DNA of 42,075 bases, taken from assembly GCA_003171065.1 (NCBI GenBank), contig PMXQ01000086.1, positions 2,195-44,269 on the forward strand, in the 5' to 3' direction. Under the pieces are notes generated by a model, which had not been told where the DNA came from, made no database searches, and was given only the letters and a program-made list of their open reading frames with translations. The first letter of the stretch is position 1. Every line of letters starts with the position of its first letter. This document shows positions 2,768 to 40,071 of this stretch, in pieces. A program made the translations under genes and the position numbers. The stretch comes from Chloroflexota bacterium (GTDB taxonomy: Bacteria; Chloroflexota; Limnocylindria; Limnocylindrales; CSP1-4).

Positions 2768-2770
2768 GGG

Positions 2771-3682: not shown

Positions 3683-3683
3683 G

Positions 3684-8302: not shown

Positions 8303-8674
8303 GACACGCCCCCACGCGCCGCGGCGCACAACCCGAATCTGGTCGCGTCGCTGGACCCACCGCAGCTCGACCCGCCCCGAAATGTCGCCTCAAGACATGG
8401 CCTGCTTTCATTCCGGCATGTTCCCCTTGCCGCCGGGCCATCAGCTGGCCCAGCCAGCATAGACTTGTAGACCCGAGTCTGGACCCTGCGCGTGCCACCT
8501 AGGCTGGCACGGAGCACACAGCGCGCTGAACGCGCCAGCTCATCGATGTTTTCACCGCGGGCGGCAGTCACGTCTCCGGCGTGTGGCAACACGTGAACTG
8601 GCCGACCGTCAGAACGGTCATCGCGTCATCCTCGCTCCATTGGACTAGGAAACCGGCGAGGAAGGAGAAGCACG

Positions 8675-9360: not shown

Positions 9361-10404
9361 CTACCCTGCGACCCTGAGGCTGCCCACCAGATCGGGGTTG
9401 GAGACCTCGCCGGAGACGTTGCCGCCGCTCAGGGCGTTCCAGCCGCCCAGCAGCTTGATGAACTCCCGCATCAGCTCGTCGTTGAACTGGCCGCGCATCG
9501 CCACCCGCATCAGCCGCAGTGCCTCGAAGGCGGTCACGGCAGTCTTGTACGGCCGGCGAGAGGTCAGCGCGTCGAAGGCATCGACAATGGCCACGACCTG
9601 GCTGTCCAGGGCGATCTGCGAGCCGGCGCGCGAAGTCGGGTAGCCGGACCCGTCGCAGCGCTCGTGATGCTCGGAGATGATGTGGGCGTAGGAGGGGGCG
9701 TAGCCGAGGGCACGCACGATCATGTCGTGGCCGGCCTTGGCGTGGCCTCGCATGACCTGCCACTCGACGGCGTCGAGTGGTCCCGGCTTGTCCAGGATCA
9801 CCTTGGGCACGCGGTTCTTACCGATGTCGTGGAGGAGGCCGCCGCGGGCCACGTCCCGGATCTCCTGCGGCCCACCAAAGCGCGTGAAGCGGGCGAGAAC
9901 GATGCCGTACACAGCGGAGTTGATGGCGTGCGTGTGCGTTGCCATGTGCTTCTGCATCGTGGCGACCATGGCCCAGACCAGATCCTCGTCCTCCAGCATG
10001 CGGAAGGTGATGGCGTCGACAGCGTTCTGGGTCATCATCAGGCCGTCGTGGTCGAGCGGCCGGTCGCGCATGAAGACCGGGGCCAGCACCTTGGCGGCGA
10101 TCGAATAGGCCGTCTTGCTGCGCTCGATGGGCGACATGCGCTGGTTGGCGAGCACCCTCGGCAGCGACGCGGCCAGGGCCCCATGCAGCAGGTCGGCATC
10201 GATCTCGCGAACCAGGAACGACATCCCGCGCTGGGCCCTGGCGACAACGCGCCGCAGGTCTCCACCGCGCATGGCATACAGGATCGGCCTTGGCCCGCGC
10301 CAGATGTACAGGTCGCAGGGCAGCGTCTCGATGTCGGTCAGGACTCGGGCCGGAACGGGCTCGAATCCTGGCGGGGCGGCGGTGATGGCCGGTTGGACTG
10401 GCAT
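9361..10404 (-). CDS. HD-GYP domain protein (putative cyclic-di-GMP phosphodiesterase)
   Basis: HDIGKNRVPKVILDKPGPLDAVEWQVMRGHAKAGHDMI ... EHHERCDGSGYP. The track ORF starts at 10440, but a predicted promoter at 10444-10470 favours the ATG at 10404. Confidence 0.9.
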   Translation of the reverse strand: MPVQPAITAAPPGFEPVPARVLTDIETLPCDLYIWRGPRPILYAMRGGDLRRVVARAQRGMSFLVREIDADLLHGALAASLPRVLANQRMSPIERSKTAYSIAAKVLAPVFMRDRPLDHDGLMMTQNAVDAITFRMLEDEDLVWAMVATMQKHMATHTHAINSAVYGIVLARFTRFGGPQEIRDVARGGLLHDIGKNRVPKVILDKPGPLDAVEWQVMRGHAKAGHDMIVRALGYAPSYAHIISEHHERCDGSGYPTSRAGSQIALDSQVVAIVDAFDALTSRRPYKTAVTAFEALRLMRVAMRGQFNDELMREFIKLLGGWNALSGGNVSGEVSNPDLVGSLRVAG

Positions 10405-10443: not shown

Positions 10444-10470
10444 GTGTCGGTGCCATCCGAACCCCCTTGA
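10444..10470 (-). promoter_or_regulatory. Putative sigma28 (FliA) promoter of the HD-GYP gene
   Basis: Minus strand TCAA-N15-ACCGACAC. Confidence 0.55.
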
Positions 10471-10484
10471 GAGGAGTCAGGCGG

Positions 10485-10512
10485 TCAAATGCGGGAGCCG
10501 GCCAGCCGATAC
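10485..10512 (+). promoter_or_regulatory. Putative sigma28 (FliA) promoter of cheR
   Basis: Plus strand TCAA-N16-GCCGATAC (also readable as CAAA-N15), just upstream of the cheR ATG at 10521. Confidence 0.55.
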
Positions 10513-10520
10513 CTCCCGCG

Positions 10521-11363
10521 ATGGAGACTCCGCCAAGCCCTGAGCGACCTGCCCTTGCGCCCGCGTTCGCGCCGGCTCCCGAGCTCGACACCGTCGCCTA
10601 CGACCGGCTCGCCCGAGAAGTTCGCAGCCTACTTGGAATCGACCTGAGCCAGTACAAACCGGCCCAGGTCTGGCGCCGGGTGAACGGTTTCGCGGCGGCT
10701 CGCGGCCTGACCGACTCCGACGTCCTGGTCGCCAGGGTTCGCCAGGATGCGGCGCTGCGCCAGGCCTTCCTGGACATGCTGACCATCAACGTCAGCGAGT
10801 TCTTTCGGAACCCAGAGGCCTGGGAGATGCTGGTCGATCGACACCTGAGGTCGATGCTGCACAGCCAGCTCTCGATCAGGATCTGGAGCGCCGGCTGTTC
10901 GCTCGGCTACGAGCCCTTCACCGTGGCGATGCTCGCCCGCGAGATCGCGCCGGCGTCGTCTGTCCGCATCCTGGCCACCGACCTCGACGACACGATTCTG
11001 TCGCGCGCCCGGCAGGCGACCTACACCGAGGCCCAGATGGCGGGCGTTTCGGATGGGCGGCGGGCCCGGTTCTTTCGGCGCAGCGAGGACAGATGGGAGG
11101 TGAAGCCGGAGCTGAAGGCCCTGGTCACTTTCGGGCGGCACGACCTTCTCAAGGATGCCTACGAGAAGCCGTTCGACCTGATCTGCTGTCGTAACGTGGT
11201 CATCTACTTCACCGAGCAGGCCAAGGTCGACCTCTACCGGCGCTTCTGCGCTGCGCTCCGGCCAGCCGGGATCCTCTTCCTGGGAGCGACTGAGTCGATC
11301 CCAAACGCCCGGGCGGTCGGCCTGGAACCCGCGGGGCTCACCTTCTACAGGCGCCCCGCGTAG
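10521..11363 (+). CDS. cheR: CheR-type chemoreceptor protein methyltransferase
   Basis: MLTINVSEFFRNPEAWEML, IRIWSAGCSLGYEPFTVAML, FDLICCRNVVIYFTEQAK. Start taken at METPPSPERP within the longer track ORF. Confidence 0.92.
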   Translation: METPPSPERPALAPAFAPAPELDTVAYDRLAREVRSLLGIDLSQYKPAQVWRRVNGFAAARGLTDSDVLVARVRQDAALRQAFLDMLTINVSEFFRNPEAWEMLVDRHLRSMLHSQLSIRIWSAGCSLGYEPFTVAMLAREIAPASSVRILATDLDDTILSRARQATYTEAQMAGVSDGRRARFFRRSEDRWEVKPELKALVTFGRHDLLKDAYEKPFDLICCRNVVIYFTEQAKVDLYRRFCAALRPAGILFLGATESIPNARAVGLEPAGLTFYRRPA

Positions 11364-11516
11364 GGTCCTCGCCGGCAACACCGGGGCCGATTGGGCCTGG
11401 CCGAACGGGCCGTCCAGGGCGCGGAAGTCCGTTCCCGCTCCGCTCCGGGGTCCTGCCCAAGACCATGCAAACGCAGCATTCCAGATCCCACGGCCGTGGG
11501 CTACCCTCCGGGGCGT

Positions 11517-11960
11517 ATGACAACTCCCACACCGCTCCACGCGGGGAGCCACTCACCCTCGGTGCTGATCGTGGACGATGACGAGTACGTCTACGGCGCG
11601 CTGGAAGCCGCCCTCCGCGGCCTGAGGGTTCATCTCCTGACCGCGCGCACGGCGGCTGAGGGTGAGGCTCTTGCCCTGCAACATCGACCGGCGCTGGCCA
11701 TCGTGGACGTGGGCCTGCCGGATCGGAACGGCTACCGGCTGACCGCCGATCTGCGTCGCTCGCCGTCGCTGACGGGGATGCGCATCCTCATCCTGACCGG
11801 CCAGTCGCCCGACGAGGCGGCCGCCCGCGACTCGGGCGCCAACGGCCTGATCCTCAAGCCGTTCCGGCTGCACCACTTCCTCGATCTGGTCCGCGAGCAG
11901 CTCGGCTCGCGCGAGCACGATCAGGAGCGCCTGCCCGCGGTCCTCGCTCGCGGCGCCTGA
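11517..11960 (+). CDS. Single-domain response regulator (receiver)
   Basis: SVLIVDDDEYVYGALEAAL, phosphoacceptor D in AIVDVGLPDRNGY, conserved K in LILKPF. Confidence 0.9.
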   Translation: MTTPTPLHAGSHSPSVLIVDDDEYVYGALEAALRGLRVHLLTARTAAEGEALALQHRPALAIVDVGLPDRNGYRLTADLRRSPSLTGMRILILTGQSPDEAAARDSGANGLILKPFRLHHFLDLVREQLGSREHDQERLPAVLARGA

Positions 11961-12101
11961 CCCAAAGGTCGAGCAGGACGCCGTCGCTTCAGGCCTCTGC
12001 GCACCGGCCTCGATCAAAGCTTGCCCGCAGATCTTCGTCCGAGCGTCAGCCAGATGCCTTGTGGCGCATCCATGCTCCGAGCGGGCCCGACTGAGGTCCC
12101 C

Positions 12102-14156
12102 TCATGCCGCGCCAGCTGTCGTCTGGAACCGGTGGTGGTCCTCCGCGTAATGCCGGAGCACAACATGTTCGACGTGGCCGGCCCGGACTCCCGCCTCCAT
12201 CATCCGGTTCCACATGTCCCAGTCATTGGGTCTCCGCTCGCGCCAGCACTCCTCGTCTTCGCGGATGAACCTCAGGCCTGACGAATAGAGAACGGCCTCA
12301 GCACAGAACCCTGCCTGGCGCGGCGGCCATACACCCAGCCTGAACCATTGACCTTCTGGCAGCTCTATCCAGGAGTCGCCATACACGAACTCCAGCCGAT
12401 GCTCGAGTGCAACAGAGAGCAGCGCCTCGATGTGGTCTCGCGTGAACTCGTCATTGTTGGCCTGAGGTGCGATCCACTGACCTCGGGCCAGTTCCAGGCC
12501 GTGGTTATACAGTCGCGAGCCGACGCACATCCACGCCAGCTCCGGGTCGCCCTGGTACGGGCTCAGTTCCGGGAGGTCTTCGAACCGGACCCTGGGGTCG
12601 TCCACAGTTCGAATGGCATCGAGGGTTTCCTCGGTGGCGTGGTCGCCAACCACAACGACCTCGATGTTCCTGTAGGTCTGGCTGAGGACGGAGGCGAGCG
12701 ATCGCTCTACCAGGATCCGGCCACGGCTGTACGTTGGGATCACGACGCTCACAAGTGGGTTGTCGTCGGCCCCGTCGGGCCAGCAGACCTCGCGGTCGCC
12801 CCGCAGCTGGGCGAGTGTCTCGCGCTCTTCGATGCTCCTGGCCCTGATCATCCGGCGGTGAGCCAGATTCGCCCGCGCCTCGGACTCCACGGCGAGTTCA
12901 CGCTCCCGAGCCTGGCTGCGAGCCAGACCGGGCGTCAGTCCTCGCAGGGAGCCACGGCCGGCATGGTCCGCTGCCCAGCGGAATGCGTCCGCCCACTCGG
13001 CCGCTCGATCGCGGACGTTGTACTCGGCACGGACCCGCTCCCCGGCCCGGCCGGCGAGATCCTCCCGCATCTGAGACGAGGCGGCCAACCGGCGCAGCTT
13101 CTCGCGCCACTCGGCCTTGTTGCGGGCCAGCAGCCCATCCACGCCGTCGCGAATGACGTCATAGGGACCGCCGCCCATGGTCCGGGATGCAACGGTGGCT
13201 GCACCGACGAGCGAGTACTCGAGCCAGTGGAGTTCCGAGCGGGCGCGACTGAAATCGTCCTGGCCGACTGGTGCGAGGCCTATTGCCGGCCGTGCGGCCG
13301 CGAGCTGGCCTGCAAAGTCGCGGACCTCCTGGACGTACGGCAGTGCCTCGTCCACGACGGCGCGGACGCCGGGATCGTCGCTGCCGAGCCAGATCCGGCG
13401 CCCGCCGGTCGCTCGAGCGGTCTCGTCCACGGCATCGCGGCAGATCGCGTAGTCGTGCAGGCGGACGGCCATACCGTAGTACAGGAACGACAGTGGCCGG
13501 GGCTCGGAATCCGGAGTCTGCTGCTCATACCATTCAGTGTTGACGGCATTGCGAACCACGCGCACGGCGGAGTTGTAGCGGCGAAGGCTGCTCGCCAGCG
13601 TGGGGGTCGTCACCGTCACGAGGTCGGCCCGGCGGGCGAAGCGCTCGATCAGGTCGAGATCGCCCTGGATGCGGTGATAGAAGCCGAGCCAGGGCTGAGG
13701 CGCCAGCAGCATGTCGTCGATCTCGTATACCATCGCCCGTCCGCGCAACACGGATCGATCCCGTTCAATGGCGGCCAGCAGATCGCGGACGATTCGATCC
13801 CGGGCGACAGGCGCATGACCCGTCGTCTTGCAGTGGCCGGCAAGCGTGGCGGCATCCGGAGCAGCGTAGTCGCACTCGTCGCAGGCGCAGACCGTGGCGT
13901 AGTACCGCCGAAAGACCAGGACGTCGGCCCACTCGATCGGCGAGGTGTCAATCACGGCGACGCCGTCGCGAACGGCATCGTCGAGGCGGTCGGCGTAGGC
14001 AGGCGGAACCTGCACTCGGTAGTCGTTGAACTCGCCCCAGGTTCGCAGCTCCACGCCGTGATCGGCGAGCAGACCGCGGTAGACGCCCAGTCGCACGGAG
14101 TCGCACACTCCAGCGTCGATCGAGCCATAGACGAGGACGCGCAGTGGTTCGCCCAT
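12102..14156 (-). CDS. Two-domain glycosyltransferase (N-terminal GT4-like domain with C2H2-like motif, C-terminal GT2-like domain)
   Basis: 684 aa; C-terminal LVSVVIPTYSRGRILVERSLASVLSQTYRNIEVVVVGDHATEETLDAI is GT2-type. The N-terminal ~400 aa are clearly related to the protein at 19378-20580 (e.g. SELHWLEYSLVGAAT / SELHWLEYALAGAAT). Confidence 0.85.
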   Translation of the reverse strand: MGEPLRVLVYGSIDAGVCDSVRLGVYRGLLADHGVELRTWGEFNDYRVQVPPAYADRLDDAVRDGVAVIDTSPIEWADVLVFRRYYATVCACDECDYAAPDAATLAGHCKTTGHAPVARDRIVRDLLAAIERDRSVLRGRAMVYEIDDMLLAPQPWLGFYHRIQGDLDLIERFARRADLVTVTTPTLASSLRRYNSAVRVVRNAVNTEWYEQQTPDSEPRPLSFLYYGMAVRLHDYAICRDAVDETARATGGRRIWLGSDDPGVRAVVDEALPYVQEVRDFAGQLAAARPAIGLAPVGQDDFSRARSELHWLEYSLVGAATVASRTMGGGPYDVIRDGVDGLLARNKAEWREKLRRLAASSQMREDLAGRAGERVRAEYNVRDRAAEWADAFRWAADHAGRGSLRGLTPGLARSQARERELAVESEARANLAHRRMIRARSIEERETLAQLRGDREVCWPDGADDNPLVSVVIPTYSRGRILVERSLASVLSQTYRNIEVVVVGDHATEETLDAIRTVDDPRVRFEDLPELSPYQGDPELAWMCVGSRLYNHGLELARGQWIAPQANNDEFTRDHIEALLSVALEHRLEFVYGDSWIELPEGQWFRLGVWPPRQAGFCAEAVLYSSGLRFIREDEECWRERRPNDWDMWNRMMEAGVRAGHVEHVVLRHYAEDHHRFQTTAGAA

Positions 14157-14284
14157 AGGCCTCTATGATCCCGGCACGTTGAGGCAGAGATAAGGGGTCA
14201 TAGGTGGTGCCGAAAAGGGGAGGGTTGGAGGTCCCAAGCTGCGCCGCCGCCAGAGGCCGACGCGACGAGCCCGCAATCGTCCGG

Positions 14285-14530
14285 TCAGTGGCGCAGGGGG
14301 CGATCCCCGCCGTCGATGGCGCGGACTATACGGTCATCGTTGAGGAGGCGCAACTCGCGACGAATCTGCTCGAGCTGGCACTGCAAAGAGATGAGCAGCT
14401 CGCGATCGTCGAGGAGGATGCGCTCCAGGCGATGCTGTATGGCCCGCACGGAGAGCGGGCTCAGGGCAGCGGCGAGCGTCTCGGCCGCGACCTCGCGCTC
14501 GATCGTACTTCCGTGCGGGGCCGGCATCAT
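14285..14530 (-). CDS. Small helical hypothetical protein between fliS and the glycosyltransferase; candidate export chaperone
   Basis: 81 aa, 4-nt overlap with fliS; RLERILLDDRELLISLQCQLEQIRRELRLLNDDRIV is predicted helical/coiled coil. No firm family match. Confidence 0.5.
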   Translation of the reverse strand: MMPAPHGSTIEREVAAETLAAALSPLSVRAIQHRLERILLDDRELLISLQCQLEQIRRELRLLNDDRIVRAIDGGDRPLRH

Positions 14531-15000
14531 CGCCGTACGCCCCCTGCGGCGTACTCGCCGGCAGACACCAGGACGGGCCTCACGGTGGGCGCGCGAAACG
14601 GCGTGGGTTCGGCCGGAGCTTCAGCGGCGCCCGACGCCGGGCGAGCCGCGATCTCCTGCCACGCCTCGAGCAGACCTCGCAGAACCTTGATCGCCTCTTC
14701 CGTCGGCCGGGGATCCTTGGCCAGGTTGCCGGCCACCAGCCGGCGCATCACAAAGTCGTAGAGCTGATCAAGCTGGATAGCGATCGGGCCCGCCGAGAGG
14801 TCCAGCGATCCGCGCAGGGCCGCCACGATCTCCTGTGAGCGGATGGACGCGTTGTGGGCCTTCTCGATCTCACGGCGTTCCACGAATGCCAGGTGCTGCG
14901 TCGCGAAGCGGATCGCCCCCTGGTAGAGCAGGACGATCTGGCCGGCGCGAGTGGCACTGGCGACCTGGGACGTCCGATAGGCGGCGGTCGGATCGAGCAT
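14527..15000 (-). CDS. fliS: Flagellar secretion chaperone FliS
   Basis: MLDPTAAYRTSQVASATRAGQIVLLYQGAIRFATQHLAFVERREIEKAHNASIRSQEIVAALRGSLDLS ... LYDFVMRRLVAGN. Start moved from 15156 to ATG 15000. Confidence 0.93.
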   Translation of the reverse strand: MLDPTAAYRTSQVASATRAGQIVLLYQGAIRFATQHLAFVERREIEKAHNASIRSQEIVAALRGSLDLSAGPIAIQLDQLYDFVMRRLVAGNLAKDPRPTEEAIKVLRGLLEAWQEIAARPASGAAEAPAEPTPFRAPTVRPVLVSAGEYAAGGVRR

Positions 15001-15059
15001 GGAGCGGGAGCCTCGTGACTTCGCTGGTGGGGGCTGGCCGTGCGGCCGTTCCACGTTAG

Positions 15060-15087
15060 GTATCGGCTCCGGAGGGGGTCGCCTTGA
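15060..15087 (-). promoter_or_regulatory. Putative sigma28 promoter upstream of fliS
   Basis: Minus strand TCAA-N16-GCCGATAC. Confidence 0.5.
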
Positions 15088-15236
15088 CCGAACGTGGCCC
15101 CCCGGCACCACCTGGACCGGCCACCATGGGGCTGAGCCCGGGACCGAGAGCGGCACGCCCCGACAGCGCGGCTGTCACCTGGCGAACGCCCCGCACGGCG
15201 AGTTGAGCACAGGGAGAGCCCCGAGTTGGGCCGTCG

Positions 15237-17480
15237 CTAGCTGCTGGAGGTGGACGTGCTGCTCAGGCCGCTCGACGAACTAGAACTCGACGAGCTAGAT
15301 GATGTCGATTCGCCGAGCTCGGCGGCGATCTGGGCCGACTGGGACTGCAGCGTCGCCAGAGTCGTCTCCATGGCCGTGAATTGCGCCTCGATCATCGACG
15401 TGTAGTTGTCGATCATCTCCTGCTCGGTGGCTTCGCGGCTCTGAACGGAGGTTATCTGGTCCGTCAGGCTCGTCGTGCTCGACTGGATGTAGGCCTGCGT
15501 GTTCGACGGATCCTCATAGCCCTGCAGCTGGGCCAACAGTTGACCCAGTGGACCCGTGGCGCTGTCGAGCAGGCTGGACGCCCCGTTCGGGTCGTTGGTC
15601 AACGCAGCAGCCAGTTTGTTCGTATCTAGCTGAAGCCGATTCGTCGTCCCAACTGCAGAGCCGACGGTGCCGGTGCTGACCCCGAGCGCGCTCAGGGAGT
15701 TGGTGTTGCCACCGCCGACGGCCTGCATGACCGTGTTGCGCAGGCTCAGGAACATCGTCAGGGCCGTGGGGTCGTCCGCCAGCGGACCGGCGGATCCGGC
15801 CGTGCCTCCGACCGTCCCGGGCGTGTTCGCTGTCAGGTTGTCGAGCGTGTCACCCAGGCTGTTGAAGGCCGATATGAAGGAACTCAGGGCAGTCTGCACG
15901 GCATTTGTGTCGACACCCACGCTGAGAGTCTCGGTCTCACCGAGGGGCGACTGGCCGACCAGGCTCAAGGACACGCTGTCGATGGCGTTCGTGACCGTGT
16001 TGCTGGCGCTGATGATCGACCGGCCATCCACGGTGAGCTGCGCATTCCGGCCGACGACCTGAGCGTTGGTCGTTCCGGGAGCCAGCTTGAGCGCAGCCCC
16101 CAGATTGCCGCTCGTGTCGACTATGTCAATGGCGGACGCGCCCGTGCTCTGCGCCGTCAGCTCGATCTCGTCGTTGGTTCGGTCGACCGAGGCGACGACT
16201 CCCGCGCCCGCGTTGTTGATCCTGGTGATGACGTCCGACAGCGAGTCCTTCGTCGTGTCGTACGAGATGGCCACACCGTTGATCGTCAGCACGCCGGTGC
16301 TGGTCGAGGTCACCCCTGGAATATCGGACGTGTCGATCGTACTGACCATGCGGGCGACGCCAAGATTCGTGGCACCCGTAATCGTCGGATTGGCGGCGTT
16401 CGTCGCGCTCGAGTTGGCGATCCCGAGCATCCCCAGGGCATTGCTCGAGTCGCCCGACGCGCTGAACGACAGCGAATGCGCGACGGCGCCACCGGCGATG
16501 CTCAACTGGAGTTTGTTGCCCACCACAGAGAACGTGGCAGTGGCCGAGGGGTCGGCGGAGACGTTTGAACCGCCGGCCTGCAACTGATTCTGGATCGCCT
16601 GGCCGAAGCCCGCCATGACCTGATCCAGCGTCGTCTTGGTGGGATCCCCAACCGTGTAGTGGACGATGACTCCGTCGACGATGGCGCTGATCTGTCCGGC
16701 CGTGACGCTGCCGGGCAGGTTCAACGATTGCAGCGTTGGATCCAGATAGGCCGTGCCGTCGACGGTCGCGTTCTGGACGTTGGCCACGCCCTGTGTGCCC
16801 AGGCCGAAAGCGGTCGCCAGATTGCTGGTGTCGGAAGGATCGCCGAAGCCGATCGTGTGCGCCGCCGAGTTGCCGCTGATCGCGAGCTGCAGCTGCCCGT
16901 TGACGATGGAGGCGCTGACCGTGCTCCCGCTGTCGGTGGTCTGGAGCTGCGTCTGAAGCGCGCTCGACAGATCGTCGATCACGGATTGGAGGGTCGTGGT
17001 AGTGGGATCCCCGACCGTGACCTGGACGGCGGTCCCGTCCACCGTGAGGGTCATAGTGCCGGCCGTGATGGGAGTCGCAAGGTTGGCGTTGGCGAGTGTC
17101 TGCGACGTGTCGACGTTTCCCGTTACCGCGGCGCCGAGTGCGCCGGTCGAAGTCGCCCGTGTCGCCGTCGCCAGGTTCTGGACAGAGATCTGGTATGAGG
17201 CGACGGTGGCGCTCGCGCCCGCCGAAGCCGTCAGGACCGAGCTATCGCTCGATGTAGCCGCGCGGCTCGAGCCTGCGCTCGTGACGGTAAAGTTCTTGAG
17301 CTGAGTTACGACGCTGTCGATGGCCGAGCCGAGCTGCCCGTATGCCGTCTTCTCGGAGGTGAGGCTGGCTTCTTTCGTCTGAAGGTCGGTTAGCGGCTGC
17401 TTCTCGGCTGCCACGAGAGCGTCGATGATGCTCTGTGTGTTGAGTCCTGAGATTACGCCGCCGAATTGGATCGTTGACAT
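15237..17480 (-). CDS. fliD: Flagellar hook-associated protein 2 / filament cap FliD
   Basis: MSTIQFGGVISGLNTQSIIDALVAAEKQPLTDLQTKEASLTSEKTAYGQL and C-terminal LTDQITSVQSREATEQEMIDNYTSMIEAQFTAMETTLATLQSQ are FliD signatures; Ser-rich C-terminal tail. Confidence 0.95.
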   Translation of the reverse strand: MSTIQFGGVISGLNTQSIIDALVAAEKQPLTDLQTKEASLTSEKTAYGQLGSAIDSVVTQLKNFTVTSAGSSRAATSSDSSVLTASAGASATVASYQISVQNLATATRATSTGALGAAVTGNVDTSQTLANANLATPITAGTMTLTVDGTAVQVTVGDPTTTTLQSVIDDLSSALQTQLQTTDSGSTVSASIVNGQLQLAISGNSAAHTIGFGDPSDTSNLATAFGLGTQGVANVQNATVDGTAYLDPTLQSLNLPGSVTAGQISAIVDGVIVHYTVGDPTKTTLDQVMAGFGQAIQNQLQAGGSNVSADPSATATFSVVGNKLQLSIAGGAVAHSLSFSASGDSSNALGMLGIANSSATNAANPTITGATNLGVARMVSTIDTSDIPGVTSTSTGVLTINGVAISYDTTKDSLSDVITRINNAGAGVVASVDRTNDEIELTAQSTGASAIDIVDTSGNLGAALKLAPGTTNAQVVGRNAQLTVDGRSIISASNTVTNAIDSVSLSLVGQSPLGETETLSVGVDTNAVQTALSSFISAFNSLGDTLDNLTANTPGTVGGTAGSAGPLADDPTALTMFLSLRNTVMQAVGGGNTNSLSALGVSTGTVGSAVGTTNRLQLDTNKLAAALTNDPNGASSLLDSATGPLGQLLAQLQGYEDPSNTQAYIQSSTTSLTDQITSVQSREATEQEMIDNYTSMIEAQFTAMETTLATLQSQSAQIAAELGESTSSSSSSSSSSSGLSSTSTSSS

Positions 17481-17535
17481 CCTGGTCTCCCGGAAGCGCC
17501 ATGGCCAGCCCCGTCCGCCGGAGCAGCCGTTCGGG

Positions 17536-17562
17536 GTATCGGCTCAAGTCTCGCAAGCTTGA
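17536..17562 (-). promoter_or_regulatory. Putative sigma28 promoter of fliD
   Basis: Minus strand TCAA-N15-GCCGATAC, 55 nt upstream of the fliD ATG. Confidence 0.65.
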
Positions 17563-17619
17563 GCCGGCGAGCGGCAGTCCACCAGCCGGGTTTCCCCCCG
17601 AACTTGCGGGCTGGGCCGC

Positions 17620-17955
17620 TCACTTCGCCCGCGCTGTTGATCGGCTCGAGTCGCGGGTGGTGTTCATCATCCGCCGCGTGTTGGCGAGCCTCTCGCGGAG
17701 TGAAGCCATCTCGGTTCGGAGCTGATCGGCAGCCTCTCGATCGCGGTCGAGAATCCGGCGAAGCCTGGCGTTGAGGTCCGGCGGGCGCGTCTTGGGGTCC
17801 GTCCGAACGAGGAATCGAAGAGCCGCCTCGCGCGCCTTCAGGGCCGCGGTCGCGGCTTCCAGGTCGGGATCGGGTCGCCGGCCCAAGGCAACCATCAGGG
17901 CATCCGTGGCAGCTTCGAGGGCACTGATAGTGGCGACCTGGTGGGTGGCGTCCAT
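17620..17955 (-). CDS. Hypothetical helical protein between flagellin and fliD (possible chaperone-like protein)
   Basis: MDATHQVATISALEAATDALMVALGRRPDPDLEAATAALKAREAALRFLV ... RRILDRDREAADQLRTEMASLRERLANTRRMM; heptad-like. The track ORF start is 17961. Confidence 0.6.
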   Translation of the reverse strand: MDATHQVATISALEAATDALMVALGRRPDPDLEAATAALKAREAALRFLVRTDPKTRPPDLNARLRRILDRDREAADQLRTEMASLRERLANTRRMMNTTRDSSRSTARAK

Positions 17956-17981
17956 TCTCACCTTGGGGCCGAAGGCCGAAC

Positions 17982-18015
17982 AGAAGGGGCCGGCGGTAAC
18001 CCGCCGGCCCCTTCT
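17982..18015 (-). terminator. Hairpin downstream of flagellin, probable intrinsic terminator
   Basis: Perfect 15-bp inverted repeat agaaggggccggcgg-taac-ccgccggccccttct, 47 nt after the flagellin stop; only modest U content follows. Confidence 0.7.
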
Positions 18016-18061
18016 TGACTCTCAGTCGGTGGCCCAACCGGCGTCGGGCCAGGGAACCGAA

Positions 18062-19258
18062 CTAGCGGAGCAGGGTGAGGACGTTCTGCGGAGCAGAGTT
18101 GGCCTGGGCGAGGATCGCCGTGCCGGCCTGCTGCAGGATCTGTTCCTTGGTGAAGTTGACCATCTCCGACGCCACGTCGAGGTCCCTGATGCGGGACTCG
18201 GACGCGTTGAGGTTCTCGGAGGCCACGCCGACCGCGGCGATCGTGTGGTTGAGGCGGTTCTCGACGGCGCCGAAGCTGGAGTCGAGGTTGTTGATGTAGG
18301 TGATCGCCTTGTCCGTCTCACTGATGAGGGTGGACGTGGCGGTTCCCTGGTTGGCTGTCCAGGTGGCCGCGCTTCCGGTGGCTGTAGTGAAGGCGCCGAT
18401 CGCCGTGTCAAAGGCACCGCCGTCGTAGGCGGATGTCTGAGCGTTACCGAACGTAACGGCCAGTGTGTCTCCCGAGTTGGCGCCGATCTGGAACGTGGCC
18501 GTGTTGTTGCCGGCCGTGGTCTGGACGTTGAGCCCGGCGAGGTCCTTGGACAGGTTGGCCGCCGTGCCGCCGGCCGCGCCGGCGACGGTGATGCTGACTC
18601 CCAGCTGGCCGAACGTGATGGTTTGGGTGCCAGTGGCGTCCATGGCCGCCAGGTTGACCTGCTGGCTGACGGTGCCCAAGGTCATGGTCAGGGTCCCGGC
18701 GCCGCCGGCGCTCGAGAGCGTGTACGTGGAGCCGGCCCGTGCGCCGGAGACGTCCACGTTGGAGATGGTGGCGGGAACGTCGGCCAGGGCAACACCCGCC
18801 TTCGCTGTGCTGCCCGCCGCCTGCGTGACGCTCATGGCGCCAGTGAGGAGGTTCTGGCCGTTGAACGTGGTCGCGCCCGCGATCCGGGTGATTTCGGCCT
18901 GGAGGGCGACTACTTCGGTGTTGATGCTCGCGGCGTCGCTCGAGCCGATCGTGGCGTTGGCCGCCTCGACCCCCAGCTCGCGAATGCGCTGCAGCATCGA
19001 CTGGATCTCGTTCAAGCCGCCTTCTGCGGTCTGAACCATCGACACGCCGTCCTGGGCGTTTCGCTGGGCCTGGTTGAGGCCGGTGACCTGCGCCTCGAGC
19101 TTGTTGCTGATGGCGAGGCCAGCGGCGTCGTCTGCGGCCGTGTTGATCCGCAAACCACTCGACAGCTTCTGGACGCTACTGGAGAACGCATTCGACGTAA
19201 CGCCGAGGTTTCTCAGGGCATCGAGTGCGTCAACGTTCGTGTTGATGACCATACTCAT
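18062..19258 (-). CDS. fliC: Flagellin
   Basis: MSMVINTNVDALDALRNLGVTSNAFSSSVQKLSSGLRINTAADDAAGLAISNKLEAQVTGLNQAQRNAQDGVSMVQTAEGGLNEI ... conserved C-terminus ASEMVNFTKEQILQQAGTAILAQANSAPQNVLTLLR. Confidence 0.98.
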   Translation of the reverse strand: MSMVINTNVDALDALRNLGVTSNAFSSSVQKLSSGLRINTAADDAAGLAISNKLEAQVTGLNQAQRNAQDGVSMVQTAEGGLNEIQSMLQRIRELGVEAANATIGSSDAASINTEVVALQAEITRIAGATTFNGQNLLTGAMSVTQAAGSTAKAGVALADVPATISNVDVSGARAGSTYTLSSAGGAGTLTMTLGTVSQQVNLAAMDATGTQTITFGQLGVSITVAGAAGGTAANLSKDLAGLNVQTTAGNNTATFQIGANSGDTLAVTFGNAQTSAYDGGAFDTAIGAFTTATGSAATWTANQGTATSTLISETDKAITYINNLDSSFGAVENRLNHTIAAVGVASENLNASESRIRDLDVASEMVNFTKEQILQQAGTAILAQANSAPQNVLTLLR

Positions 19259-19264
19259 TGGAAT

Positions 19265-19301
19265 AGGCCTCCTAGCCTGGGTTCAGTGCGGCATCCATGC
19301 C
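19265..19301 (-). promoter_or_regulatory. Candidate CsrA-binding sites in the flagellin 5' leader
   Basis: Minus strand: GGCATGGATGCC (19290-19301, CANGGANG in a small hairpin) and AGGCTAGGAGGCCT (19265-19278, AGGA in a hexaloop overlapping the Shine-Dalgarno AGGAGG). Confidence 0.5.
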
Positions 19302-19329
19302 GCCGGAGGGCATCTGCCCACCGCGGGAG

Positions 19330-19356
19330 AAGTCGGCTCGGGGGGCCCCCACTTGA
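19330..19356 (-). promoter_or_regulatory. Putative sigma28 promoter of flagellin
   Basis: Minus strand TCAA-N15-GCCGACTT, about 71 nt upstream of the flagellin ATG. Confidence 0.65.
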
Positions 19357-19377
19357 GGCGGAAGAAGCGTCACGGGT

Positions 19378-20580
19378 CTAGCCAGCGCTCGCGGCGGTGC
19401 GCGCCCGCCCCAACCCGGCATGCTCAGCTGCCCACCGGTAGGCATTGGCCCACTCCGGCGCCCGGGCGGCCACGGTGTACTCGGCCAGAACGCGCTCCCG
19501 GGCCCGGGCGGCCATTTCCGACCGGAGGCCCGGCGAGGTTGCGAGTGAGCGCAGGTGACGCTCCCAATCGGTCCCGGCGCGGGCCACCAGACCGTCCACG
19601 CCATCACGAACGACATCGTAGGGACCGGGCCCCGCCAGACCGGAGACGATCGTGGCCGCTCCGGCCAGCGCGTACTCGAGCCAGTGGAGCTCGCTGCGGG
19701 CGCGGTTGTATGGAGTGTCCTGGAGCGGCGCCAGGCCGATGCCGGGCCGGGCGGCGACGAGAGCGGCGGCGAACGCCGGCCGGCTCCGAACCCAGGGCCG
19801 GACTTCATCGACCACTCCCGCCACCTGCGCCGCATCCGCGCCGAGCCAGACCCGGCGCAGCGTGGGAGTATCTCGGGCAACGGCGTCGACGGCCGGGCGT
19901 GCGACCTCATAGTCACGCAACCGAACTGCCGCTCCGTGGTAGATGACACGCGGCTCACCGGGCGCCTCGGCGGGTCCGTCGGGCCGCCCGGCCTCATACC
20001 AGCCCGGATCGACGGCGTTGCGGATGACCCGCACCGCAGCGAGGGTGTGAGGAGCCAGGCGCTCGGCCAGCACCGGCGTAGTCGTGGTCACGAGATCGGC
20101 CAGACGCAGGATCCGCTCGATCAAGTCGAGCTCGAGCAAGTCCTCGGCACCCGCTGGCAGTTCGGCCGAAAAGACATCGTCGTCCGTGTCGTAGACGATC
20201 GCGCGATTGCCCAGGACGCCGCGCTCCGCCTCGAGAAGCCCGATCAACGGCCGGATGCCGAAGTAGGGCGCCGGCACGACTAAATGGCCGGCTACGCGGC
20301 CATGCGACCTGGCCTCGCGCGTGTCCAGCGTTCGGAGCCCGCAACCAAGGCAGGCGTGCCAGGTCCGGTAGTGCCGCCTCAGGACCACAACGTCCGACCA
20401 ACCGATGACGGCCTCCAGGGCCCCGAAAGGGTCCTCTTCGGTGGCGGGGTCGCCCGGAGTCCAGCTCACCAGCTCGACCGCGTGCCTGGCCAGCTCGGGG
20501 ACGAAGGCTTCGAACCTGAGAGCGTCGGAGGCACCGGCGGCGCCCGGACCGATCACGAGAACGCGCAGGGTAGCGGTCAT
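19378..20580 (-). CDS. Glycosyltransferase (GT4-like), paralogue of the N-terminal half of 12102-14156
   Basis: VRVIRNAVDPGWYEAG, RVWLGADAAQVAGVVDEV, PYNRARSELHWLEYALAGAATIVSG, PYDVVRDGVDGLVAR. Start at MTATLRVLVIGPG (20580). Confidence 0.82.
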   Translation of the reverse strand: MTATLRVLVIGPGAAGASDALRFEAFVPELARHAVELVSWTPGDPATEEDPFGALEAVIGWSDVVVLRRHYRTWHACLGCGLRTLDTREARSHGRVAGHLVVPAPYFGIRPLIGLLEAERGVLGNRAIVYDTDDDVFSAELPAGAEDLLELDLIERILRLADLVTTTTPVLAERLAPHTLAAVRVIRNAVDPGWYEAGRPDGPAEAPGEPRVIYHGAAVRLRDYEVARPAVDAVARDTPTLRRVWLGADAAQVAGVVDEVRPWVRSRPAFAAALVAARPGIGLAPLQDTPYNRARSELHWLEYALAGAATIVSGLAGPGPYDVVRDGVDGLVARAGTDWERHLRSLATSPGLRSEMAARARERVLAEYTVAARAPEWANAYRWAAEHAGLGRARTAASAG

Positions 20581-20732
20581 GACGCACACTGCGACGGACG
20601 CGCGAACAGCCGGATTCCCACGATCGAGATGGTCCGGCACCGGCTTCTTGGCGGGTAGTCGGCATTGGGGGGATCCGACCGGGGAGGCGCGATGGTACCG
20701 GCCCGGCGCTTCCAGGTTCAGGCGAAGTGGGT

Positions 20733-21032
20733 TCAGGCGATGCCGGGGTCGTCGTCCTCCGGATCGTCGGCGGTGCGCTCAGCCGCGGGACTGCGCTCCG
20801 GATCAGCCACCGGAGCCAGCGGTGCCAGCATGACCCGCAGCCTGGCCCTCGTGTCCGAGGCCTCCCGCACTTCACCCGATACCTGCTCGACGAGCTCCGC
20901 GCGCACCACCGCCACGTGACGCGGCGCGGCGATGCCAAGGACTACGCGGTCGCCCTCGATCCGAACGACGCGCACTTCAACGTTGGGACCGATCCTGATC
21001 GATTGGCCCGAGCGGCGCGTGAGGACGAGCAT
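20733..21032 (-). CDS. csrA: Carbon storage regulator CsrA with C-terminal extension
   Basis: MLVLTRRSGQSIRIGPNVEVRVVRIEGDRVVLGIAAPRHVAVVRAEL; adjacent to fliW. Confidence 0.97.
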   Translation of the reverse strand: MLVLTRRSGQSIRIGPNVEVRVVRIEGDRVVLGIAAPRHVAVVRAELVEQVSGEVREASDTRARLRVMLAPLAPVADPERSPAAERTADDPEDDDPGIA

Positions 21033-21482
21033 TCAGCCCTCCTCCGCAACCGGAACCTGTAGCGGGAACTCGGGGTCTTCCACGACGAGCTGTCGGGCCG
21101 TGGCCTTTTGTATGTCTATGACCAGGGGACCGGCCAGGTTGGCCGTTATGGCAGGTGGCTCCCCGTGAACGGCCAGGATGGCCAGAACCCATTCGCCCTC
21201 ATCGACGAGGCCGAGCTTGCGCAGCCGGTCCGACGTGCCTGGCTTGACGTTGTCGGCCGCCGCGGCGATGAAACCCATCGTTGGGTCGTCGGAGGAGACG
21301 ATCTCGTACAGCGCGGTTTCTGGAACGCCGCTCAATCGATGGTGAACGAGGGCGGGCAGCCCAACAAGGCCGTCCGGAAAGACAATCTCGGCTGCGATGG
21401 GTGCTTGGCTCACGGACCGGTCCTCGCATGCGGGCACGAACTTGAGGTGGCCTGTCAGCGCCGGCTCACCAGAGCGCGTCAC
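21033..21482 (-). CDS. fliW: Flagellar assembly factor FliW
   Basis: IVFPDGLVGLPALVHHRL ... MGFIAAA ... WVLAILAVHGEPPAITANLAGPLVIDIQKATARQLVVEDPEFPLQVPV. Confidence 0.95.
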   Translation of the reverse strand: MTRSGEPALTGHLKFVPACEDRSVSQAPIAAEIVFPDGLVGLPALVHHRLSGVPETALYEIVSSDDPTMGFIAAAADNVKPGTSDRLRKLGLVDEGEWVLAILAVHGEPPAITANLAGPLVIDIQKATARQLVVEDPEFPLQVPVAEEG

Positions 21483-22357
21483 TTCAGGTAGTCGATGAGA
21501 CTCGTCTGCATCACCTTGGCCGTGACGGCAAGGGTAGCCTGGTAGGTCGTCTGGCGCTGCGTCAGCTCTGTGATGGCGGAGGGCATGTCCGTGTCCTCGA
21601 GCTGGCTCAGGAGAGCCTGGTTGCTGGTGGTGAGCGCCTGCTGCGTCGTCTTGGCATCGGTGAGCCGGTTCTCCCGAGCACCGACCGTGGCCTGGGCCTG
21701 CGTCAGGGTCTGGAGGGCGCTAGAGATCTGGCCGATGGTGGATTGCTGGACCGGCTGGCCGCTGTTCAGATCGGCCTGGAGCTGTGTCAGGGCCGTCATC
21801 GCCGGCTGGAAGGCAACGTCGCCGGCCAGGCTCACCTGCATCGTGGCGGCGGGCCCGATGCGCGCGATCGAGACACCATGATCGCCCTGGTATGAACTGA
21901 CCTGGCCGGGTCCGGTCACTTCGAACGGGGCGCGATCCACGCGAAAGCCGCCGAAGATGTATTCGTCGCCGACCTGGGCGTTCGCGTCCTGGGCCAGCGC
22001 TTCCGTCAGCTGGGAGACTTCCGCCGCGATCGACTTGAGATCTCCGGGGCTCAGCGTTCCGTTCGCGCCCTGGATGGCGAGCTCGTTGGCGCGCTGGATC
22101 AGATCCCCGGCGCTGGACAGCGCGGTGTCCATGGCCGAGAGCGTGCTCGTGGCATTGTCGATGTTCCGGCCGAACTGGTTGAGCTGGGCCAGAGTGTCGT
22201 TCAGCCCGACGGCAGACTGGACGTCGGCCGGGTTGTCGGACGGCCGGTTAAGCTGCTTGCCCGAGCTGACCTTCTCGGTGATCGATTGGATCGAAGCCAG
22301 ATCGTTCGACAGGCTGCTGTTGGCGGTGTCGTAGATCATCGATTCGGACACGCGCAT
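21479..22357 (-). CDS. flgL: Flagellar hook-associated protein 3 FlgL
   Basis: MRVSESMIYDTANSSLSNDLASIQSITEKVSSGKQLNRPSDNPADVQSAVGL; flagellin-like C-terminus. Confidence 0.95.
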   Translation of the reverse strand: MRVSESMIYDTANSSLSNDLASIQSITEKVSSGKQLNRPSDNPADVQSAVGLNDTLAQLNQFGRNIDNATSTLSAMDTALSSAGDLIQRANELAIQGANGTLSPGDLKSIAAEVSQLTEALAQDANAQVGDEYIFGGFRVDRAPFEVTGPGQVSSYQGDHGVSIARIGPAATMQVSLAGDVAFQPAMTALTQLQADLNSGQPVQQSTIGQISSALQTLTQAQATVGARENRLTDAKTTQQALTTSNQALLSQLEDTDMPSAITELTQRQTTYQATLAVTAKVMQTSLIDYLK

Positions 22358-22370
22358 CGCTCAGCCTCCG

Positions 22371-24110
22371 TTACGCGGTCACAACGCCGGTGGCGTTGAT
22401 GAGCGTGTCCAGCATCTGGTCCATCGTCGTGATGACCCGTGCAGCTGCCTGATAGGCGCGCTGGAAGCGGAGCATGTCGGTCGCCTCCTCGTCGAGCGAG
22501 ACGCCGCTCGTCTGCTGGACCTGGTTGTTCAGCTGGTTGACCACGAGCTGCTGGTTCTGCGACATCTCGGTCGCCTGGCTCGACGCCGAACCGATCTTGG
22601 CGACGAGCCCGGAATAGAAATCCGTGGTCGTCTGCGACGGTGTGTAGAGGGAGGAGGCCACGACGGTGTTGTGGCCGGGCGTGGTGAAGTCCGTCACCAG
22701 GTCCGCACCGGCCTTGGTAGCCGTCTCGCTGCTGACGGTCAGCTTGATGCCGAGCTGGTCGAAGTTCAGGACCTGCGTGTCGCCCGCCGCCATGTCGGCG
22801 ACTGTGATCGTCTGGTGGCTGCCGTCCGCGCCGGTCAGGGTCAGGCTGTCGCCCGTACCGCTGAACGTGTAGGTCTGGGCTACGGCTGTGTCCGTCGCCA
22901 CGGTCATCAACCGCGCCGTCGTGTTCGTGCTCAGGTCCATGCCGCCGACGATGTCCGTCCCGGCCACGCCGGCCGAGTAGCTCTTGGCGTTCTGCAGGTC
23001 TGCGATCAGCCCGGCCACGGAGCCGTCGCCGGGAGTGTCCGGAGAGGCGGACGCCGCGATCAGCTGCGGGTTCGCCGCCACGGCCGGATTGACCGCCAGC
23101 GTCGCGGCCGCGTTCCCCGGGTAGTAGGTGAAGAGCGCCTGGCCGGCATTCCCGTTGGCATCGACGCCGCGCTCGTGGAGCGCGTTGGTCGAGTCGGCTA
23201 TGCCCTGGGCCAGCGAGTCGAGCTGCGATTGGTAGCCGGCGACGTCCACGTCGCGAACGTCCAGCAGGGCCTTCAGCTGCCCGGACGGCAGCGACACCGC
23301 GCTGCCGTCGGACCAGGTCGGAGTGACGTGGCCCGAGCTGTTCGTCTGGGCGACCATCTGACGCGCGGTCACACCAGAAACCAGGTCCGTTCCGCCGATC
23401 TCGACGGTTGCCGACCCGTCTTTCTGGACGGCGACGGAGGTCGGAACGATGGCGCTCAGCTGCTCGAGCAGCTGCTCGCGCTGATCCAGCAGGTCGTTGG
23501 GATTGGCTCCGGTGACGGTGACGCGCTGGATCTGGCCGTTCAGGCCGGCGATCTGGGTGGCCAGGTCGTTGATCGACGTGACCTGCTGGCTCACCTGAGT
23601 GTCGATGCCGCTGGCGATCATGCCGAGCTGAGTCGAGTCGCTGTTCATCTGCATCGCCAGGTTCGAGGCCTGTTCTGTCAGGGCGGTCCGCGCCGCCGTC
23701 GAGGTCGGCTCCGAGGCGACGTCCTGCCACGCGGCGTAGTACTGGCTGATGGTGTTGCCCAGACCCGAATCTGACGGCTCCGGGAAGATCGCCTCGACCT
23801 TCGCCAGCTCCTGATCGCGGGTCTCCCACTGGCCCTGCAGCGTGGTCTGTGCCTGGACCTGCTGGTCGAGGAAGGTGTCCCGCACGCGCGTGATGGCGGC
23901 GACCGTGACGCCGGAACCGATCTGGCCCGGCAGGCCGCTCCGGTTGAAGGCCGGGAACGTGTACGGCGGCGACTCGACGAGCGAGACCTGCTGGCGGGAG
24001 TAGCCGGGGGTGCTCGCGTTGGCGACGTTGTGGGCCGCCGTGTCGAGCTGCTGCTGGGCGGCGCGGAGAGCCGATGACCCGATCTCGAGTCCGAAGAAGG
24101 GGGAGCTCAT
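22371..24110 (-). CDS. flgK: Flagellar hook-associated protein 1 FlgK
   Basis: MSSPFFGLEIGSSALRAAQQQLDTAAHNVANASTPGYSRQQVSLVES; C-terminus VSLDEEATDMLRFQRAYQAAARVITTMDQMLDTLIN. Confidence 0.96.
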   Translation of the reverse strand: MSSPFFGLEIGSSALRAAQQQLDTAAHNVANASTPGYSRQQVSLVESPPYTFPAFNRSGLPGQIGSGVTVAAITRVRDTFLDQQVQAQTTLQGQWETRDQELAKVEAIFPEPSDSGLGNTISQYYAAWQDVASEPTSTAARTALTEQASNLAMQMNSDSTQLGMIASGIDTQVSQQVTSINDLATQIAGLNGQIQRVTVTGANPNDLLDQREQLLEQLSAIVPTSVAVQKDGSATVEIGGTDLVSGVTARQMVAQTNSSGHVTPTWSDGSAVSLPSGQLKALLDVRDVDVAGYQSQLDSLAQGIADSTNALHERGVDANGNAGQALFTYYPGNAAATLAVNPAVAANPQLIAASASPDTPGDGSVAGLIADLQNAKSYSAGVAGTDIVGGMDLSTNTTARLMTVATDTAVAQTYTFSGTGDSLTLTGADGSHQTITVADMAAGDTQVLNFDQLGIKLTVSSETATKAGADLVTDFTTPGHNTVVASSLYTPSQTTTDFYSGLVAKIGSASSQATEMSQNQQLVVNQLNNQVQQTSGVSLDEEATDMLRFQRAYQAAARVITTMDQMLDTLINATGVVTA

Positions 24111-24111
24111 G

Positions 24112-24558
24112 CTAGGCCCCCCGATCCACGTAGGTGGGGCCCGGGTTGGCCGAGTAGCCCCCGACCGTGCCGTCGGGGCCAATCCTGCCGAGGCCCATGA
24201 GCAGCCGAATCAGGGCCGCATCCACGGCCCAGGCCTGCTCGATCAGGTATGCGTTCCGCCGCGCGCTGGCGGCGAGCCGCTCACACAGGGCCGGGACGCC
24301 GACGTCACCGAGCATCGCCCTGTCATCGTCCGTGAGAATCCCCGTGAGGCGATTCACTTCCTCGACCAGGGCCTCGGCCTGCTCGTTGCGACTCGTGAGA
24401 CCGAGACGGTCGTGGCGCTGGACGGCAAGTGTGACCTCGTCCGAGATGCTGGCCAGGGTGGTCAGAGCGGATGTCAGCGCGCTCAGCTCGGGCGACCCCA
24501 ACCCGATCGGATAGCCGGGGGCGTATCCCGAGAACTCGTGGCCGCCCGGCGCAAACAC
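24112..24558 (-). CDS. flgN: FlgN-like flagellar export chaperone
   Basis: 148 aa helical protein between flgM and flgK; LTSRNEQAEALVEEVNRLTGILTDDDR ... LAASARRNAYLIEQAWAVDAALIRLLM. Confidence 0.75.
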   Translation of the reverse strand: MFAPGGHEFSGYAPGYPIGLGSPELSALTSALTTLASISDEVTLAVQRHDRLGLTSRNEQAEALVEEVNRLTGILTDDDRAMLGDVGVPALCERLAASARRNAYLIEQAWAVDAALIRLLMGLGRIGPDGTVGGYSANPGPTYVDRGA

Positions 24559-24867
24559 CTAGGCTCGCTTGTCGAGGATCCCTCGAGCCACGACCTCGGC
24601 GTTAACCGTGTACGTGCCCTGGGCGATCCGTTGCTTGGCGTCGGACACCTTGTCGGCACGGACATCGGGAGCGGCATTCGCGGCTTCGAGAGCCTGATGC
24701 ATCTCCCGGCTCCGCGGCGAGAGCTCGACGCGGGCGGCCGGCTGGCCGACGGGGGTTGCCCCGTTCTGGGGTCGCGCCTGCTCCGGACGTACCGGCGTCG
24801 AGTTGGCAGCCGGCGTCTGATTGAGGAGCGGCGACGAGGTTACGGACCGCGGGTCTTCGATCTTCAT
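24559..24867 (-). CDS. flgM: Anti-sigma28 factor FlgM
   Basis: MKIEDPRSVTSS... VELSPRSREMHQALEAANAAPDVRADKVSDAKQRIAQGTYTVNAEVVARGIL. Confidence 0.92.
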   Translation of the reverse strand: MKIEDPRSVTSSPLLNQTPAANSTPVRPEQARPQNGATPVGQPAARVELSPRSREMHQALEAANAAPDVRADKVSDAKQRIAQGTYTVNAEVVARGILDKRA

Positions 24868-24895
24868 TCTTGTCCTCTCTTGGGCGTCACCATAG

Positions 24896-24922
24896 GGATC
24901 GGCCGGTACCGAGAAGCCTTGA
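24896..24922 (-). promoter_or_regulatory. Putative sigma28 promoter of the flgM-flgN-flgK-flgL-fliW-csrA operon
   Basis: Minus strand TCAA-N15-GCCGATCC, 28 nt upstream of the flgM ATG. Confidence 0.65.
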
Positions 24923-26193: not shown

Positions 26194-26237
26194 GTCGGCT
26201 CGCTCCTCAAGGGTCACGGTCCCGGCCAAGTCCAGAC

Positions 26238-26948
26238 TCAGGGCAGTCTACCGAGCTGCGTGGCATCGCTGAGTGTGTTGTCCTGGAGCGAGAGCGCCCG
26301 GGCACTCAGCTGGAAGTCGCGCTCCTGCTGGATCATCTGGGTCATCGCCAGCGACATGTCGGTGTTGCTGCCCTCCAGCATGCCCTGCTGAATCTGCCCT
26401 GTGGCGGGCGGGAGATTGCCCGCCGCGGCGTAGAGATTCTCCCCCAGCCGAGTGGCTCCGCCGGCGGGCCAGGCCACCAGCGCGATTCGCTGGCCGGTCT
26501 GGACGATGGTTCCGTCCTTTGACACGGTGAATGGTTCGCCAGGTTGGATCGTGTGCCCGGCCACGTCGAGCACCGGGTAGCCCTGCTGGGTGACAAGCGT
26601 GCCGGTGGCGTCGGTCACGAAATCGCCGGCGCGGGTGTAGGCGATGCCACCGCCCGTTCGGACGACGAAGAGCCCGTCGCCTTCGATAGCCAGGTCCGTC
26701 TCCTTCCCGGTCACCTGGATCGGGCCCTGGCTGATGTCCAGCTTCAGGCCGGTCGGGATCGTGCCGGTGCCGAGGAGGCCCAGCTCCGGACCGAGCGAGT
26801 TCATGATCCCCAGCTCGTAGTCGGTCTGGCTGGTCTGGGACTGCTTGAAGCCGACGGTGTTGGCGTTCGCGATGTTGTCGGCCACGATGTCCTGGCGGGT
26901 CGCCGCTGCGACAACGCCGGACAGAGCCGTGTAGAAGCCTCTGATCAT
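26238..26948 (-). CDS. Flagellar basal-body rod protein, FlgF/FlgG family
   Basis: MIRGFYTALSGVVAAATRQDIVADNIANANTVGFKQSQ ... AIEGDGLFVVRTGGGIAYTRAGDFVTDATGTLVTQQGYPVL ... LEGSNTDMSLAMTQMIQQERDFQLSARALSLQDNTL. Confidence 0.93.
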   Translation of the reverse strand: MIRGFYTALSGVVAAATRQDIVADNIANANTVGFKQSQTSQTDYELGIMNSLGPELGLLGTGTIPTGLKLDISQGPIQVTGKETDLAIEGDGLFVVRTGGGIAYTRAGDFVTDATGTLVTQQGYPVLDVAGHTIQPGEPFTVSKDGTIVQTGQRIALVAWPAGGATRLGENLYAAAGNLPPATGQIQQGMLEGSNTDMSLAMTQMIQQERDFQLSARALSLQDNTLSDATQLGRLP

Positions 26949-39771: not shown

Positions 39772-40071
39772 TCCTTGGGGCTACCTGTCCTGGCGGGACG
39801 GTCCGTCGAAGAGTGCGGAGCGGAGCACGTCCTGCGATCTGGCCTGAAGCATTCGGCAGGGAGGGCGTGTAGGTGTACTCCCGGCTTGAGCCGGTCGTTC
39901 GGGGAGGGACCTCCGTAGTCGGCCGTTTGCCGTAGGGTCCTGGGGCGGCCGGGGGTGTTCCGATGGCACGAACGGGCCGCCCGGCTGGCCGACTACCGGC
40001 CCAGACTCGATACTTAGCGTGCCAAACCCGAGAGCAAGAGCGCTCCAACGTTCGAAGAGGAGGCTCCGCAG

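Follow-up and report, generated by a model that had tools for sequence, protein, structure and literature searches.

We analysed a 42,075-nucleotide stretch of contig PMXQ01000086.1 (hereafter, the window) from an uncultured Chloroflexota bacterium, in which six bipartite elements upstream of flagellar and motility genes are very probably promoters for RNA polymerase carrying FliA, the sigma-28 factor encoded at 26945-28108 of the same window, such that the late genes would be FliA-driven and the early flagellar operon FliA-independent. What was observed directly are the sites, how well they are conserved, where they stand, and that they occur together with fliA. The host genome of the window (G000) is a 3.0-Mb metagenome-assembled genome (MAG; 88% complete, 151 contigs). 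Its closest named relatives, among them isolates fen_1066 and fen_1044, are MAGs recorded as "Chloroflexi bacterium" with the label fen. Within the genus, fliA occurs in 15 genomes, counting G000 (60-83% identity to the window gene, by aligned stretch), and flagellar loci are syntenic among the compared genus genomes.

The pattern TCAA-N15/16-RCCGAY had exactly six matches on both strands of the 42 kb, while 0.56 were expected and six were reached in 0 of 100 dinucleotide shuffles. The six sites given by an initial annotation of this DNA were thus right in coordinates, strands, and spacers (N15 or N16), as was its reading of the -35 box as TCAAG in five of six, with TCAAA at cheR as the exception. 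The sites, with distances measured from the start codon in orthologous upstream regions, are as follows:

10444..10470 (-), predicted FliA promoter of the HD-GYP gene; TCAAG, TCAA-N15-ACCGACAC; pattern and weight matrix; 9/9 orthologues at -61 to -69 from the ATG
10485..10512 (+), predicted FliA promoter of cheR; TCAAA, N16; pattern and weight matrix; 8/8 orthologues at -35/-36
15060..15087 (-), predicted FliA promoter of fliS; TCAAG, N16; pattern and weight matrix; 10/10 orthologues at -84 to -88
17536..17562 (-), predicted FliA promoter of fliD; TCAAG, N15; pattern and weight matrix; 8/10 orthologues at 12 bits or more, best match at -82 to -86 in all 10
19330..19356 (-), predicted FliA promoter of flagellin; TCAAG, N15; pattern and weight matrix; 8/8 orthologues at -98/-99
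24896..24922 (-), predicted FliA promoter of the flgM operon; TCAAG, N15; pattern and weight matrix; 12/12 orthologues at exactly -55

Both halves resemble sigma-28 promoters: RCCGAY, matching the GCCGATA-like -10, is present in all six sites, and TCAAG, matching the TAAAG-like -35 set about 15 bp from the -10, is separated from RCCGA by 15 or 16 bp (counted from TCAA). Canonical TAAA-N14/16-RCCGAY had zero matches in the window. Sigma-54 (-24/-12) sites were also considered and set aside: allowing one mismatch, the window has a single match against 1.2 expected, and it lies outside the flagellar region.

Conservation and genome-wide distribution of the sites

The initial annotation had suggested that a weight matrix and a genome scan would test the motif, and both came out in its favour. 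A matrix trained on 26 orthologous sites scored the six window sites at 22.9-26.7 bits and the next best window site at 11.7, a gap of 11 bits, and when a site's whole transcription unit was left out of training each still scored 18.0-23.7 bits (a shuffled window is expected to give no more than 0.06). Applied to sister species in the same leave-one-unit-out manner, the matrix reached at least 12 bits in 55 of 57 orthologous upstream regions at a near-fixed distance from the start codon, a score attained by 0.7-1% of random 153-nt stretches. Spacer identity among orthologous sites was just 36-46% (69% at flgM), compared with 77-94% at the -10.

Placement followed what is expected of sigma-28 promoters, with sites before late flagellar and chemotaxis genes and none before early ones. 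No FliA site was found upstream of flgN, flgK, flgL, fliW, flgF, fliA, flhA, flhB, or luxR in 8-12 genomes each, nor upstream of the glycosyltransferase genes in any genome tested; the upstream region of csrA was not part of this separate scan.

Across G000, a loose pattern (TCAA-N15/16-GCCGAT) gave 27 matches, many of them coding, and 7 in the reversed control, and was dropped as too permissive. The stricter TCAA-N14/16-RCCGAYHHCY gave 11 matches and 3 in the reversed control. Ten of the 11 precede flagellar, chemotaxis, or cyclic di-GMP (c-di-GMP) genes. Six are the window sites, and of the five beyond it, four stand before genes for HDOD, CheC-like, CheY, and PilZ proteins, and the fifth falls within a coding frame. 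Strict matches tracked fliA, averaging 12.0 per genome in fliA-carrying flagellate genomes of the genus and 3.5 in genus genomes lacking fliA (Mann-Whitney p = 0.0004), with reversed-pattern means of 1.7 and 2.3, respectively; the latter genomes hold background counts only, at 1-5 matches each. We had considered these genomes as a test for loss of the cheR promoter, but cheR orthologues are missing from them, and the CheR domains that they do have are distant (35-37% identity) and sit in long frames; the comparison therefore tests co-occurrence only.

Genes outside the training set also carried sites at near-fixed distances, namely flaG (9/9 genomes), the CheC-like gene (11/11), and HDOD (4/4); the PilZ gene is likewise preceded by a site, and the region before cheW holds a good -10 paired with a -35 of the CTCAC type. 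Sequence comparison thus supports adding flaG, cheC, cheY, cheW, HDOD, and PilZ genes to the predicted regulon. The surroundings of the methyl-accepting chemotaxis protein genes of G000 (10-kb stretches) showed no convincing site in a search that was not exhaustive.

FliA, FlgM, and the weighing of alternative explanations

That the window encodes both FliA and its antagonist FlgM, as the initial annotation held, was borne out by profile matches above cut-offs. FliA scored 226 bits against the FliA/WhiG family model TIGR02479 (cut-off 189.6) and 208 against PRK06986 (cut-off 201), contains Pfam regions 2, 3, and 4, and has FliA/WhiG-type sigma factors as its closest solved chains. E. coli FliA contacts the GCCGA -10 through a region that includes D81, R84, and R91; the aligned window residues are D, R, and R, and the ESRV-Q-H recognition helix is kept. 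From the FliA family we infer that FliA would bind these sites and where transcription would start. A link between the -35 base (C/A) and a recognition-helix residue (C/S in ESRVxQ) was tried on the few extracted helices and not supported, given genomes G214 (ESRVCQ with TAAAG) and G230 (ECRVSQ with TCAAG). Separately, FliA bears an acidic, low-complexity N-terminal extension of ~140 aa (27690-28108, -), the ends of which are conserved in flagellate species (MFDRQFLPPL-type start, DLSGYGAYG-type end); it is seen in flagellate species only and not in the FliA of flagella-less ones. FlgM, encoded in the same locus, matches PF04316 (1.3e-17) and TIGR03824 (over cut-off) and has a FliA-type promoter upstream in 12/12 genomes. 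Flagellar export genes are present in the window, and by analogy FlgM would be exported through the flagellar basal body.

Some observations weigh against a FliA regulon of this form. Two fliD sites of ten (G007 and G012) score below 12 bits, the -10 is followed by C-rich NCCT where ATAA is usual, and the cheY site overlaps an upstream coding frame, so that its conservation may be coding and is weaker evidence. Further, the training sites were chosen by consensus match, which inflates their 100% -35 identity and makes the leave-one-out scan the fair test.

GC-rich DNA makes GCCGA common, and even genomes lacking fliA show a few strict matches, yet chance or coding constraint has next to no likelihood as an explanation: shuffles never produced six sites, distances are kept in up to 12 genomes despite the diverged spacers, ten of the 11 strict G000 matches precede motility or c-di-GMP genes, and the orthologue scan already contradicts it. 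It is very unlikely, too, that the element is instead a binding site for another late-motility activator, for example of the LuxR type, even though the first gene of the early operon encodes a luxR-type regulator and the support for a sigma factor is sequence evidence. The element consists of two boxes, with TCAA and GCCGA set 15-16 bp apart as in sigma-28 promoters; other Chloroflexota have CCTAAAG-N15-GCCGATA before flagellin; and in two relatives without the early operon but with fliA (G011 and G015) the sites persist at flgM, cheR, and cheC (in G015 also at the HD-GYP gene). Finally, the sites might be real but read by a second FliA/WhiG-type sigma factor, given that FliA and WhiG share promoter preference and that one genome (G014) has a second FliA-like gene; in G000, however, a single FliA clears the search threshold, and the window protein exceeds both family cut-offs, leaving this a slim prospect.

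FliA-directed transcription from the six sites thus remains the preferred reading, and control of the late genes by FliA, as initially annotated, is supported by orthologue conservation, enrichment tracking fliA, new motility targets, and a matching FliA. Under this model, the early operon, from the luxR-type gene through fliA and the flgF/G-type rod gene, would be made first without FliA. FliA would then drive flgM-flgN-flgK-flgL-fliW-csrA, fliC, fliD, fliS, cheR, and the HD-GYP gene, together with flaG, cheC, cheY, cheW, HDOD, and PilZ genes elsewhere, the second chemotaxis block included. FlgM would hold FliA until the basal body exports FlgM. With flgM itself a predicted FliA target, the circuit would include feedback.

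Gene content, early operon, and flagella-less relatives

Pfam matches identify HD-GYP, cheR, response regulator, fliS, fliD, fliC, fliW, flgL, flgK, and flgM in the chemotaxis and late flagellar part of the window, and fliA, flhA, flhB, fliR, fliQ, fliP, fliO, fliN, fliM, fliL, motB, and a luxR-type regulator in the early part. The genes most relevant to the predicted regulon are:

9361..10404 (-), HD-GYP (HD_5) protein, probable c-di-GMP phosphodiesterase; Pfam PF13487, 6.6e-23
10521..11363 (+), cheR; Pfam PF01739, 1.6e-51
11391..11960 (+), CheY-like response regulator, for which the upstream scan gave no separate FliA site; Pfam PF00072
14527..15000 (-), fliS; Pfam PF02561, 1.4e-30; ATG conserved
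15237..17480 (-), fliD; Pfam PF07195/PF02465
18062..19258 (-), fliC (flagellin); Pfam PF00669/PF00700
20733..24558 (-), flgN-like open reading frame (ORF), flgK, flgL, fliW, and csrA; probably co-transcribed from the flgM promoter
24559..24867 (-), flgM, anti-sigma-28 factor; Pfam PF04316, 1.3e-17; TIGR03824 above cut-off
26945..28108 (-), fliA, sigma-28, with ~140-aa N-terminal extension; TIGR02479, 226 bits (cut-off 189.6)

Likely starts of three genes lie inside their longest ORFs (cheR ATG 10521; HD-GYP ATG 10404, placed from promoter position and orthologues; fliS ATG 15000), so that in a mechanical list some sites seem to lie inside or abut ORFs. The cheR -10 (10505-10523 (+) region) ends 8 nt before the ATG, an arrangement kept in 8 genomes, and the cheR mRNA is predicted to be leaderless or nearly so; by the same distance arithmetic, flaG and HDOD mRNAs should be likewise. 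The cheR and HD-GYP promoters are divergent, their -35 boxes separated by 14 bp, and simultaneous occupation is therefore unlikely.

Several neighbouring genes were observed alongside. The csrA gene (20733-21032, -) is directly 3' of fliW, an adjacency that suggests FliW-CsrA control of flagellin translation. Two related glycosyltransferase-like genes (12102-14156 and 19378-20640, -), without FliA sites of their own, sit between late flagellar genes, making flagellin glycosylation possible. Type I-C CRISPR (clustered regularly interspaced short palindromic repeats) genes cas3, cas5c, cas8c, cas7, cas4, and cas1 occupy 1083-8329 (-).

The initial annotation had described an early operon spanning 39771 to 25096 without a FliA site. 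No such site was found, but the operon ends at ~26238, and 25096-26229 (-), between the flgF/G-type gene and flgM, encodes an aldose 1-epimerase that only some sister species have. The luxR-type gene that opens this operon is preceded, at a distance of about 85 nt, by an invariant 36-bp element (39847..39882, -), present in exactly one copy in 12/12 flagellate genomes and in zero copies in 9 others. It matches no FliA site and no sigma-54 site, an Rfam search of the early-operon leader gave no match, and the element is the foremost candidate for an early promoter or operator.

Three relatives carry fliA and lack FlhA (G011, 92% complete; G015, 84%; G019, 95%). Flagellin is absent in G011 and G019, while G015 has one flagellin match on another contig, possibly contamination. 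The sites retained in G011 and G015 lie beside a chemotaxis cluster. In both genomes ATC replaces the ATG of flgM and ~37 N-terminal residues are lost, and their FlgM sequences differ by nonsynonymous (dN) and synonymous (dS) divergences of 0.09 and 0.34, which, in a short sequence and a weak test, suggests that the shortened FlgM is still under selection. No FlgM was found in G019. We tentatively suggest, with a little less than even confidence, that in G011 and G015 FliA/FlgM act as a stand-alone switch for a chemosensory and c-di-GMP programme and that, with the export apparatus gone and FlgM without its ATG start and N-terminal linker, the release of FliA would have to come about in some way other than FlgM secretion. 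Legionella oakridgensis, likewise non-flagellated, provides a precedent in that it retains fliA and flgM (PMC5655016); as there, G011 and G015 keep both genes without a flagellum, whereas they differ in also keeping the chemotaxis cluster and several FliA promoters and in the shortened FlgM with its lost ATG.

Comparison with known sigma-28 systems

The literature searched held no FliA regulon for this uncultured Chloroflexota lineage. The regulon and promoter consensus proposed here would make late-motility genes predictable from genome sequence alone, and point to a sigma-28 hierarchy conserved in Chloroflexota and tied to c-di-GMP genes (HD-GYP, HDOD, PilZ). Two leads are raised as well, the early-operon element and FliA/FlgM without flagella.

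Relative to E. coli sigma-28 promoters (TAAAG-N14-GCCGATAA), the GCCGAT -10 core, the AAG end of the -35, and the 15 bp between TCAA/TAAA and GCCGA are the same, as are the targets flgM, flgK/L, fliC, fliD-S, che genes, and a PilZ gene (ycgR in E. coli). Differences are that TCAAG is the rule in this lineage and a minority -35 in E. coli, that N16 is common at fliS, fliD, and cheC, that the -10 continues as NCCT/NCCC, and that no FliA site precedes fliA here, unlike in the E. coli fliA operon. In other Chloroflexota families, the promoters lying roughly 90-190 nt upstream of flagellin read CCTAAAG-N15-GCCGATA or CCTCAAG-N15-GCCGA, sharing the TAAAG/TCAAG -35, N15, and GCCGA -10; TAAAG, however, prevails outside this family, within which genome G346 has TCAAG and GCCGATACC. 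The "shifted -35" of the initial annotation was therefore real as a preference for TCAAG and overstated as a shift: E. coli FliA sites mapped by chromatin immunoprecipitation sequencing include TCAAG at flgKL and fliLMNOPQR (PMC4183435). Because E. coli FliA uses TCAAG and other Chloroflexota have TAAAG or TCAAG, TCAAG is a lineage preference or drift within the known consensus and not a new promoter class.

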